Positions 3,038 through 64,000 of a stretch of 64,000 bases of DNA are shown here, one piece after another. The notes under the pieces are model-generated. The model had not been told where the DNA came from. It did not search any database and saw nothing but the letters and a program-made list of their open reading frames with translations. The position numbers and the translations under genes were made by a program. Origin of the DNA: Candidatus Bipolaricaulis sibiricus (lineage in GTDB: Bacteria > Bipolaricaulota > Bipolaricaulia > Bipolaricaulales > Bipolaricaulaceae); the NCBI GenBank assembly GCA_004102645.1, contig CP034928.1, positions 682,001-746,000 on the forward strand, read 5' to 3'. How positions within the stretch are numbered: the first letter of the stretch is position 1; each line of letters opens with the position of its first letter.

Positions 3038-3685
3038 GTGAGCGTGCTGGAGCCGCTCGGGCGGATCCTGTTTGCCGCGGTCGTGGGCGGAACGATCGGA
3101 CTCGAGCGCGAGCTTCGGGGCCGAGCGGCAGGGTTGCGGACGCACATCCTCGTCTGTGTGGGGGCCGCGGTGGTGATGGTGGTCGCAGCGGCCCTCGACC
3201 AGGTGGACGGTCCCGGTCGGGCGCTGGCTGGAATCGTCACTGGGGTGGGATTCCTCGGTGCGGGCGCGATCATCAAGACCCGGGACATCGTGCGCGGCGT
3301 GACGACGGCGGCCTGCATCTGGCTCGTCGCCGCCCTGGGCGCCGTGGCTGGTCAGGGTCTGTACGCCCTCGCCGCGGGGAGCGCGGCCATTGCCCTCCTC
3401 GTTCTGCTGGCGCTGAACCAGGTGGAGCGGTTGGTCCCTGCCCACTCCTACCACACCGTGATCGTCCGTGGAAGCGGAACAGCAGCGCAGCAGCTGGAGG
3501 CACTGTGCCGAGAGGTGTTCGCGCGGGAGGATCACCGCGTGCTGGCCCTCGATGTCGACCTCGAGCAGGGCGAAGACCGCCTCACGCTCACGTTCTACCT
3601 TCGGAGCCGCGGTGTCGTGCGGGCAGTGCCGGTCGCCGAGGCCCTCCTCGCCATCCCGGGCGTGTCCAGCGTTCGCTGGCGGTGA
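3038..3685 (+). CDS. MgtC/SapB family membrane protein
   Basis: Integral membrane protein of 215 residues. The first two thirds form about four hydrophobic helices with the MgtC signature GGTIGLERELRGRAAGLRTH, then GVGFLGAGAIIK. The last ~75 residues are soluble and resemble the ACT-like C-terminal domain of long MgtC proteins. Known relatives act in magnesium homeostasis or modulate F-ATPase and phosphate uptake; the role here cannot be told. Start is GTG, four bases after the kbl stop, so translation is probably coupled. No obvious functional tie to threonine degradation. Confidence 0.88.
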   Translation: MSVLEPLGRILFAAVVGGTIGLERELRGRAAGLRTHILVCVGAAVVMVVAAALDQVDGPGRALAGIVTGVGFLGAGAIIKTRDIVRGVTTAACIWLVAALGAVAGQGLYALAAGSAAIALLVLLALNQVERLVPAHSYHTVIVRGSGTAAQQLEALCREVFAREDHRVLALDVDLEQGEDRLTLTFYLRSRGVVRAVPVAEALLAIPGVSSVRWR

Positions 3686-3694
3686 CGGGACTGG

Positions 3695-4240
3695 CTAGAG
3701 GCCCAGCTCGGAGCGGGCGGCCTGCATCGCCGCGAGGACGACCCCGACGAACTCCTCCAGAGAGAGGCCGAGCCTTTGGCCGAGCGCGATCCCCTCGCGC
3801 GACGCCGAGCGGGCGAACCCCTTCTCCCGGTACCGGTTGAGCACGTTCTGGGGGGTGAGCCCGCCGATCCGGTCCGGGTGGACGAGCGCTGCGGCGACGA
3901 CCAGCCCGGTGAGGGGATCCACCGCGGTGAGGGCGATCTCGAGGGGGACCCTGGGCTCCCGGTGGCCGGCGTGAGCGAGAATCGCGTCGAGGATCTCCTC
4001 GTCCGCGAACCCGCGGGACCGCAGGAGATCGACTGTCCGGTGGCCGTGGACGTCGGGTCGGTCCTTCGTTTCCTCGTAGTCGAGGTCGTGGACGAGGCCG
4101 GCCAGTCCCCACCGGTCGGGGTCCTCTCCGAACCGTTGGGCGAGCGCCCGCATCCCCGCCTCCACGGCGAGCATGTGCTTGACGAGGTTCTTCGTCTTGA
4201 CCCTCTCCTCGACGAGGGCCAGGGCTTCCAGTCGGTTCAT
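3695..4240 (-). CDS. HD-domain hydrolase (predicted metal-dependent phosphohydrolase)
   Basis: A 181-residue cytosolic protein with an HD-type metal site: the His51-Asp52 pair in GLVHDLDYEET, HGHRTVDLL and HAGHREPRVP supply the other likely ligands. It belongs to the HDIG-like group often annotated as phosphohydrolases; substrate unknown. The ATG has a strong AGGAGG and overlaps the stop of the upstream endonuclease III gene by four bases (ATGA), so the two form an operon. Longer upstream frame is the nth gene read out of frame and was not used. Confidence 0.85.
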   Translation of the reverse strand: MNRLEALALVEERVKTKNLVKHMLAVEAGMRALAQRFGEDPDRWGLAGLVHDLDYEETKDRPDVHGHRTVDLLRSRGFADEEILDAILAHAGHREPRVPLEIALTAVDPLTGLVVAAALVHPDRIGGLTPQNVLNRYREKGFARSASREGIALGQRLGLSLEEFVGVVLAAMQAARSELGL

Positions 4241-4917
4241 CGATCCTCCTTGCGCGGCGGCGATTGTACGCGCGCCGCCCCGTAGGGACAGTGGTCGAGG
4301 AGGGGGCAGTCCGGGCAGCGGGGGGCGCGGGGCCGGCACAGCTCCCGGCCGAGCCGGATGAGGTGGAGGTGGAGGTCGAGCTCCCGTCCAGGCGGGACGA
4401 GTGGGGCCAGCGCGTCGTGGGGGTCGGCCCGGCCGTCCCACAGCCCGAGGCGCCGCGTGACCCGCGCGATGTGCGTGTCGACGGGGAAGAACGGGCGGTT
4501 GAACCCGAACAGGAGCACAACGTACGCCGTCTTCTTCCCCACCCCCGGCAGGGAGAGAAGCCACTCCACGGCCGTCCTGTCGGAGAGGTTGCCGAGGAAG
4601 TCGAGAGATAGGGTGCCCCGCTCGTCCCTGATCCGGCGGAGCACGTCCTGGATGCGGGTCGCCCGCTGGCGGTGGAGCCCGGCCCCCCGGATCGCGTCCG
4701 CCACGGCCTCTGTTGGCGCCTCGAGGACCACCTCCCACGCCGGGAATCGCGCGCGGAGCCGGGCGTAGGCCACGTCGCGGTTGCGGTCCGAGGTGTGCTG
4801 GGAAAGAATGGTCCGAACGAGAAGGTCCAGTGGCGGTTCCTGAGGGGTGAGGCGGGCTGGGCCGTAATGCGCGAGCAAGACCTCTGCCGCCTTGGATAGC
4901 CGATTCCTGGGAGGCAC
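4237..4917 (-). CDS. nth: Endonuclease III
   Basis: DNA glycosylase/AP lyase that removes oxidised pyrimidines in base excision repair. About 226 residues. The helix-hairpin-helix LPGVGKKTAYVV, the catalytic Lys within it, the catalytic Asp of FPVDTHIARVTRRLGL and a C-terminal 4Fe-4S cluster with spacing Cys-x6-Cys-x2-Cys-x5-Cys (CRPRAPRCPDCPLLDHC) are all present. I chose the GTG at 4917 because the longer frame from 4974 would overlap the divergent DUF296 gene; no clear Shine-Dalgarno distinguishes the options. Co-transcribed with the HD hydrolase. Confidence 0.93.
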   Translation of the reverse strand: MPPRNRLSKAAEVLLAHYGPARLTPQEPPLDLLVRTILSQHTSDRNRDVAYARLRARFPAWEVVLEAPTEAVADAIRGAGLHRQRATRIQDVLRRIRDERGTLSLDFLGNLSDRTAVEWLLSLPGVGKKTAYVVLLFGFNRPFFPVDTHIARVTRRLGLWDGRADPHDALAPLVPPGRELDLHLHLIRLGRELCRPRAPRCPDCPLLDHCPYGAARVQSPPRKEDR

Positions 4918-4966
4918 GAACCCGAAGGATAGACGGTGTGGCCGCCGCTGCCAACAGGAGGAGAGG

Positions 4967-5386
4967 ATGATCAAGGTCGAAGCCGAATCGGTGGTTGTCG
5001 TGCGGTGCCAGGATGGCGAGGGCCTCCCCGCGGTGCTCCTCGACCCCGCGTGGGGGTCGCTCGGGCTCGTGGCGGGGATTGGGATGCTGCGCGACCTCGT
5101 TCTGGGCTACTGGAACGGGATGCAGTACGTCGAGGAGCGGATTCCCGAGCCGGTGGAGCTCCTGTCGCTTCAGGGGAACCTTGGGGACGAGGCGGGGAAG
5201 CCGGTCCTTCACGCTCACGTGGTCGCCGGGCGGAAGGGCGGTGAGGCGATTGGGGGGCATCTCCTCTCGGCAACCGTCCACAACACGGCGGAGATCGTGT
5301 TCCTCCGGCTCCCCGGCGTTCGCCTGGTCCGCCGGCGCGACCCAGGCGGGCTGCTCGGCCTCTACCCTGAGGTCGTGAAGGGTTGA
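4967..5386 (+). CDS. PPC/DUF296 domain protein
   Basis: A 139-residue single-domain protein of the PPC (plant and prokaryote conserved, DUF296) family, which forms trimers and in plants accompanies AT-hook DNA-binding segments; bacterial function is not established. Visible features: GLVAGIGMLRDLVLGYWN, EPVELLSLQGNLGDEAGKP, the conserved HAHVVAGRKGGEAIGGHLL block and TVHNTAEIVF. No AT-hook is present. Start: ATG preceded by AGGAGGAGAGG, the third of several in-frame candidates and the only one with a good ribosome site. Stands between divergent nth and the tRNA cluster. Confidence 0.87.
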   Translation: MIKVEAESVVVVRCQDGEGLPAVLLDPAWGSLGLVAGIGMLRDLVLGYWNGMQYVEERIPEPVELLSLQGNLGDEAGKPVLHAHVVAGRKGGEAIGGHLLSATVHNTAEIVFLRLPGVRLVRRRDPGGLLGLYPEVVKG

Positions 5387-63361: not shown

Positions 63362-63389
63362 TTGACGGGCGGTGTAACCCCACTATACT
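63362..63389 (+). promoter_or_regulatory. Promoter of the 21-residue peptide gene
   Basis: TTGACG (63362-63367), 16 nt, TATACT (63384-63389); about 42 nt of leader before the ATG. Confidence 0.65.
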
Positions 63390-63437
63390 CGCGCTCGGTC
63401 AGCCCTCGAATGCGGGCGACGAAGGAGGCGAAGTCAC

Positions 63438-63503
63438 ATGCTGATGAAGGAGAAGAAGGCGGAGAAGCCCAAGCAGCCGAAGAAGCCGTGCGGTTGTTGC
63501 TAA
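63438..63503 (+). CDS. Lys/Pro-rich 21-residue peptide ending in CGCC
   Basis: A very short gene: MLMKEKKAEKPKQPKKP followed by CGCC and a stop. It has a strong GAAGGAGG ribosome site seven to ten bases upstream, its own promoter and a downstream terminator hairpin, all of which argue that it is expressed. Nine lysines, four prolines and a terminal C-G-C-C suggest a nucleic-acid- or metal-binding peptide, possibly a cysteine-donor tail. I know no named family for it. Function unknown. Confidence 0.6.
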   Translation: MLMKEKKAEKPKQPKKPCGCC

Positions 63504-63556
63504 GGGATACATCGCGGAGTGCGATGACTCGGGGATGAACCTCAGGATCGCCGGGA

Positions 63557-63580
63557 GGGCGCGGGGAGCGCCCCTTCTTT
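63557..63580 (+). terminator. Intrinsic terminator after the small peptide gene
   Basis: Stem GGGCGC/GCGCCC with a five-base loop (63557-63573), followed by CTTCTTT. It lies inside a larger GGGAG/CTCCC stem. Confidence 0.6.
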
Positions 63581-63638: not shown

Positions 63639-63667
63639 TTGACGCCCCGTGCCCAACGCCATAAGCT
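63639..63667 (+). promoter_or_regulatory. Promoter of the lipoprotein gene
   Basis: TTGACG (63639-63644), 17 nt, TAAGCT (63662-63667). The predicted start at about 63674 leaves a leader of about 180 nt. Confidence 0.6.
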
Positions 63668-63673
63668 TGCCCA

Positions 63674-63851
63674 AGTGTTGAGCGTGACCGGGGAGGCGTG
63701 CAGCAGCGGGGGACGAGAACACACACAAAGGAGGATGAACCCCTCCGAGCGAGCGCCGCGAACTGGCTCCCCCGACTCCGATGTGGAGTTGCCACCCCAG
63801 TGGGCTTGACCCAGGCGGGCCGCGGGCAGCGAACGGAGGGTAAGGAGGGTT
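63674..63851 (+). promoter_or_regulatory. Long structured 5' leader, possible RNA regulator
   Basis: Contains GGAGG-ATGAACC-CCTCC (63730-63746), in which a purine-rich ribosome site is paired; ACTCC-GATGT-GGAGT (63774-63788); and CCAC-CCCA-GTGG (63792-63804). The ATG at 63735 opens a 24-codon frame directly abutting AGGAGG, too close for normal initiation. No known riboswitch class was recognised. Confidence 0.4.
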
Positions 63852-64000
63852 ATGAACAGGAAACACGTGAAGAAGCTGTTGGGAGTAGGTGCAGTGGTGC
63901 TGGCAGGACTCCTGCTCGTCGGGTGTGGCGGGGATTTCAAGCTACCTACCACCACACTCACAATGTCAGTCCCACAGGGACGATCTGGTACAACCAAGGT
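63852..64000 (+). CDS. Lipoprotein, N-terminal part (partial)
   Basis: The frame runs off the right edge; about 49 residues are visible. A lipoprotein signal peptide: MNRKHVKKLLGVGAVVLAGL then LLVGC with the lipobox cysteine at about residue 25. The mature start GGDFKLPTTTLTMSVPQG is not recognised. Strong TAAGGAGGG ribosome site. Outer-surface or periplasmic lipoprotein of unknown function. Confidence 0.85.
   Translation, partial: MNRKHVKKLLGVGAVVLAGLLLVGCGGDFKLPTTTLTMSVPQGRSGTTK

Follow-up and report, generated by a model that had tools for sequence, protein, structure and literature searches.

A 21-residue Lys/Pro-rich peptide gene of Candidatus Bipolaricaulis sibiricus belongs to a family of stand-alone small genes in Bipolaricaulota

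Does a promoter followed by a ribosome site, a 21-codon frame and a terminator amount to a real gene, and if so, what would such a small product do? The question is raised by positions 63362-63580 of a 64-kb window (the whole stretch of DNA analysed, G000:C1:682001-746000) of the single-contig, 1.70-Mb genome of Candidatus Bipolaricaulis sibiricus, which is placed in the Bipolaricaulota, in the family-level group f1. The original prediction, made from the letters of the window, had seen there a complete transcription unit, unlikely to be due to chance, and had proposed that the CGCC end of the peptide binds a metal or a cofactor and that its basic body binds RNA or DNA. The unit and its downstream neighbour (the gene c1) comprise:

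63362-63389, + strand: sigma-70 type promoter TTGACG-16-TATACT (TTGACG 63362-63367, TATACT 63384-63389, 16-nt spacer)
63398-63420, + strand: 5′-terminal mRNA hairpin GTC(A)GCCC-loop-GGGCGAC, immediately 5′ of the ribosome site, recognized by covariation
63421-63428, + strand: Shine-Dalgarno sequence GAAGGAGG, read directly and conserved in relatives
63438-63503, + strand: ORF of 21 codons plus stop (ATG 63438, TAA 63503) for the peptide MLMKEKKAEKPKQPKKPCGCC, based on the reading frame, purifying selection and orthologues
63557-63573, + strand: intrinsic terminator stem-loop GGGCGC-GGGGA-GCGCCC, a GC stem-loop with a T-rich run behind it
63639-63667, + strand: separate c1 promoter TTGACG-17-TAAGCT, from an alignment of 12 same-genus loci
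63852-64000, + strand: start of the lipoprotein gene c1, which runs past the window (L098:7853-8833), a linked neighbour outside the unit

The promoter, the strong ribosome site, the 21-codon frame and the terminator can all be read directly, just as claimed. On both strands of the window, the combination of a promoter (at least 10/12), a ribosome site and a short ORF occurs a single time, and it was never produced in 60 first-order Markov simulations of the window, so that the unit is indeed unlikely to be a chance assemblage. The ORF has a second in-frame ATG at 63444, from which the product would be 19 amino acids long, while the letters downstream of the terminator stem-loop are CTTCTTTCTC / CTTCTTTCT (the T-rich run). 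The –10 box CTATACT is present in all orthologues of this type (hereafter window-type), and the terminator is retained in several species of the same genus and missing from two genomes (G003 and G011). A promoter scan showed none on the minus strand at the unit, and an Rfam gathering search returned no match there.

Using DNA and profile searches, the window-type unit was recovered in 11 of the 12 genomes of the genus and, beyond it, in three further genera (g5, g10 and the greater part of g12), everything inside one family; the check on frame retention in close relatives, which the original prediction had suggested, was run on these genomes, and the frame is conserved. In the 16-codon core KEKKxxxPKQPKKPCG, aligned for 19 sequences that were partly collected through their own similarity to this core, 13 of the 16 residues never change and 14 of the 16 third positions vary, the variable columns being distributed 2/2/14 by codon position, with a pairwise dN/dS of about 0.02. 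An independent route, via the neighbouring c1, arrives at the same set of genomes as the peptide search. Purifying selection acts on the frame in relatives, as in a conserved small-protein gene, and the 21-residue peptide gene is confirmed as real and self-contained. The peptide has no match in NCBIfam or among PDB sequences, and the exact window-type pattern has none in viral contigs. The sole member of the genus without the peptide ORF (G006) still has the promoter and the hairpin: around positions 4873-5042 of its contig (G006:C57, L122), a deletion between two AAGGAGG repeats takes out the ORF together with the c1 promoter, the peptide promoter and hairpin being now joined to the c1 leader. 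This deletion could be an assembly error, the source being a metagenome bin.

The present analysis adds a covarying 5′ hairpin that was absent from the original prediction. In nearly every unit, the stretch that separates the –10 box from the ribosome site can fold into a hairpin of 6-7 bp. Over 25 units, 20 cells are altered on both sides with pairing kept, which 0 of 500 shuffles match, and pairing drops from 82 percent to 40-57 percent in slid registers. Moreover, when arms are swapped between sequences by permutation, the own pair is the better one (P 0.0005 for 19 sequences, P 0.004 for 13 sequences). Taken alone, the hairpin of the window is not unusually stable compared with shuffles, and RNAalifold found no structure when the 5′ leaders were simply aligned with MAFFT, probably because the arms are out of register in this alignment; it is the count on the named structure and the arm-swap test that detected it.

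A covariance model combining promoter, 5′ hairpin, ribosome site and start retrieves 52 units at E ≤5e-7 (25 of them trained the model, the remaining matches being independent), all in one family, whose bacteria are uncultured, with the next match at E 8e-4. Exactly three units are found in the source genome, a copy number that rests on this covariance search. A second model, computed from Cys-less units only, ranks the window unit first within the window (E 6e-4) and then, as next best matches, the window-type units of nine relatives; both types therefore share one design. The two sister units form a tandem pair close to 1.506 Mb. Each is equipped with a promoter and a terminator of its own, and both encode the identical (VLT)MKKDKPKPGTPKK:

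G000:C1 1505814-1505909: sister unit 1 (promoter start to early codons), from the covariance search
G000:C1 1506127-1506222: sister unit 2 (promoter start to early codons), from the covariance search
G000:C1:1505792-1505819 and 1506105-1506132 (L217): upstream box of the sister units, following the pattern RACRNATGTCC

This second locus, reached via Cys-less relatives, is flanked by the genes for a TauE-like permease and a patatin. In the genus it holds from one to three units in tandem, all of which have a promoter, a hairpin and GAGGAGGTG, a terminator being detected in nearly all. The interval from the tandem peptide units to the patatin gene contains short repeats of the type CCGTCGGGGATaAACCCCGACGC and CGGTTCCGTAGCGTCGCACCCTGTGTGCGACG (L217, about 3380-3710). 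Among four same-genus copies of the sister type, 4/4 variable columns are third positions, and the constraint is weaker in the wider set of paralogues (4/2/4 by codon position). The peptides of the family include MLMKEKKAEKPKQPKKPCGCC and (M)KKDKPKPGTPKK, and their length in relatives goes from 13 residues (MKKDKPQPSKPKK) up to 51 (VLLMAAKAKTVKPKATAKAPAKAKAAAKPKTTAKAKAVSKPKTTAKTTKKK); in G010, G002 and G001, the same slot holds Lys/Ala/Pro/Thr chains of 37 to 51 residues. Compared with its sisters, the window copy has a PCG-type tail, lacks the upstream ATGTCC box and adjoins an Ig-like lipoprotein gene. Downstream of the Cys-less copy, a LysW-like gene is found in some genera and a patatin gene in others, and in G020 the Cys-less copy persists without the LysW-like gene.

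The upstream box (RACRNATGTCC) lies exactly 12 nt 5′ of TTGAC in most Cys-less units and is often a palindrome (GGGACANATGTCCC). The pattern with its spacing is found in 24 of 100 genomes of the class, its reversed control in none. The box is not private to the peptides, since it is likewise found ahead of LacI-type regulators, of a LysW-like gene and of leaders that resemble, as judged by eye, c-di-GMP riboswitches.

As for the product, we tentatively propose a free-standing polycationic microprotein, encoded by a monocistronic gene within a small multi-gene family of group f1. The microprotein would act in trans on a polyanion. According to this scheme, the strong promoter would ensure high expression of a short mRNA, which the 5′-terminal hairpin would probably shield from decay, as can be expected of 5′ stem-loops in general, while leaving the GAAGGAGG site open. 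The peptide would be translated, the terminator would close the RNA, and the product would be a disordered Lys/Pro chain with a net charge of about +5, whose most likely target is a polyanion (DNA, RNA or ribosome, or polyphosphate), bound in the manner of H1-like tails. We favour a free-standing, strongly expressed microprotein because of the selection on coding, the own promoter and terminator, the multiple copies, the varied downstream genes and the presence, in the same slot, of an enlarged paralogue resembling H1 tails. In composition, the window copy is an H1-like Lys/Pro(/Ala)-rich cation (net +5 at 21 amino acids), and the long paralogue, in its G010 version, reaches a net charge of +17 at 48 amino acids. 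The long H1-like paralogue has no match in Pfam, and since no homology to a known H1-like family is detected, the likeness is one of working mode, not of membership. The view of a polyanion as the most likely target is drawn by analogy from the KPAA repeats of AlgP: KPAA-repeat peptides bind DNA, and AlgP is located on polyphosphate granules (PMC9239181). The idea that the basic body binds RNA or DNA is thus plausible and gains weight from the H1-tail-like paralogue, the binding itself remaining a prediction.

The gene c1 encodes a lipoprotein of 326 amino acids with three Ig-like repeats (genus g12 having a membrane anchor in place of the lipobox). The genomes with the window-type peptide are also those with full-length c1, the deletion in G006 aside, and the peptide lies directly 5′ of c1 in each intact window-type genome whose neighbourhood was read. 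This link may be functional or may simply be shared synteny, as partial conservation also extends to malQ and to later genes of the block. In the c1 leader (window 63727-63850), AAAGGAGG is followed by CCCCTCCGAG, which can pair with GGAGG of AAAGGAGG or with CGGAGGG just 5′ of the c1 ribosome site, alternative pairings that make a two-state switch possible; the pairing is similar in several same-genus species, and the g12 leader looks too short for it.

At face value, this constant neighbour could indicate a cis-acting leader or attenuator ORF, in which translation of the Lys/Pro codons would control c1, or the LysW-like gene at the sister copies. The adjacency wherever an intact window-type neighbourhood was read would fit, as would G006, the only other genome with full-length c1, where the deletion brings the c1 leader under the peptide promoter. 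However, an attenuator leader should come with a terminator/antiterminator switch at the ORF and have no independent promoter between peptide and gene, whereas c1 has a conserved promoter of its own after the peptide terminator. The downstream gene, constant for the window type (c1), is not constant for the sister units, which stand before differing genes and carry their own terminators; LysW-like genes are found without the peptide, and the peptide without them; the last residues are variable, unlike those of stall-at-stop peptides; and synteny is partly shared over the larger block of malQ, peptide and c1. Altogether, we consider control in cis to be quite improbable. Attenuation of lysine genes, an idea prompted by the LysW-like gene behind the sister copy, was rejected: the window genus is devoid of LysW, the LysW-like neighbours have scores under the cut-off of the lysW family, and gene and peptide are each found without the other. 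Acidic LysW-like zinc-ribbon proteins (PF21344) are observed outside lysine operons (L066-L075, L111), and tandem arrays of as many as three small zinc-ribbon genes occur in G040.

The short transcript with its covarying 5′ hairpin and terminator, the near-identical tandem copies of some species and the AGGAGG beside the hairpin would also suit a small regulatory RNA, functional through its hairpin and ribosome site, with an ORF that is secondary or part of a dual function. This is unlikely, given that the coding part varies almost solely at third positions, that paralogue lengths shift by whole codons (13 to 51 residues) with the Lys/Pro character kept, and that the whole-transcript folding energy of the window unit is nothing unusual (z 0.68); both a regulatory RNA and a leader peptide are less likely than a polycation. 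That the peptides are short, cationic, proline-containing and encoded in tandem copies further evokes an antimicrobial or toxin-like peptide, such as a ribosome inhibitor of the proline-rich kind or a component of a toxin-antitoxin pair, but there is no signal sequence, the Lys/Pro-rich chain lacks the hydrophobicity of type I toxins and is no hydrophobic membrane peptide, no antitoxin was identified, nor, as far as the promoter scan at the unit goes, any antisense RNA, and the long H1-like paralogues do not fit, so that we hold it to be very unlikely. Finally, a peptide acting through its CGCC tail as a metal or cofactor ligand might be suggested by the CGCC ending, which this species shares with four close relatives, and by a first Cys that is invariant across all window-type copies. 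Yet the orthologue tails read CGCC, CGC, CGG, CGGC, CGSR, CGGS or CGK, four of which (CGG, CGSR, CGGS, CGK) leave one Cys; within the tail, window-type copies all agree in no more than the first Cys and the Gly (PCG being constant), and the units at other loci have no Cys. Where a Cys-rich metal-binding peptide would have at least two conserved Cys ligands, the window type has one and the sister type none. Since the CGCC tail is not conserved and there is no conserved multi-Cys site, this part of the original prediction finds no support, and we regard metal binding as very improbable.

The polycationic microprotein that we prefer has its own difficulties: it leaves the pairing of the peptide with the lipoprotein gene unexplained, and the exact PKQPKKPCG is not obviously needed by a generic polycation. 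The strict conservation of this motif exceeds such a need and may reflect a specific partner. A broader hypothesis, which we deem doubtful, is that multi-copy protamine-like or H1-tail-like microproteins (of 13 residues at minimum), expressed family-wide from their own stabilised units, would be the major cytoplasmic polycations, organising the nucleoid, RNA or polyphosphate, the Cys-tailed version being devoted to a particular partner.

A 21-codon gene spotted by eye thus turns out to be a member of a family of stand-alone genes for polycations of 13 to 51 residues under protein-level selection, in a phylum that experimenters have hardly touched. Every copy can be located directly with the covariance model and the upstream box. 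The design shared by the units suggests that their products are abundant, and these could be tested for in enriched Ca. Bipolaricaulis, an organism with unusual bipolar prosthecae (PMC6092417).

We found no publication on such a peptide family in the open literature, most subscription papers being outside our scope; the family was previously unnamed, and while lineage-restricted polycationic small proteins are already known, we rate the repeated stand-alone gene design as unusual. The C-terminal tails of AlgP and PhaF of Pseudomonas, which are histone H1-like with KPAA repeats (PMC9239181), are similarly Lys/Pro/Ala-rich, disordered and polycationic, and the longest paralogues of the present family (G010, G002 and G001) resemble them in composition. 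In AlgP, a folded N-terminal domain carries a disordered tail of 195 amino acids, whereas here the whole protein has 13 to 51 residues, and no sequence homology to the AlgP/PhaF proteins is detected. Attenuator leaders and nascent-chain arrest peptides also feature a short Lys/Pro-rich ORF ahead of other genes, but the present family differs by its own terminator, by the own promoter of the next gene, by the lack of a fixed downstream gene and by a variable C-terminus. With the very short lineage-restricted small proteins of bacteria, it shares a size under ~30 residues, a strong ribosome site and conservation in a single lineage, but it stands apart from them in having stand-alone transcription units that recur with a shared, covarying 5′ hairpin and, in the Cys-less type, a fixed upstream box.
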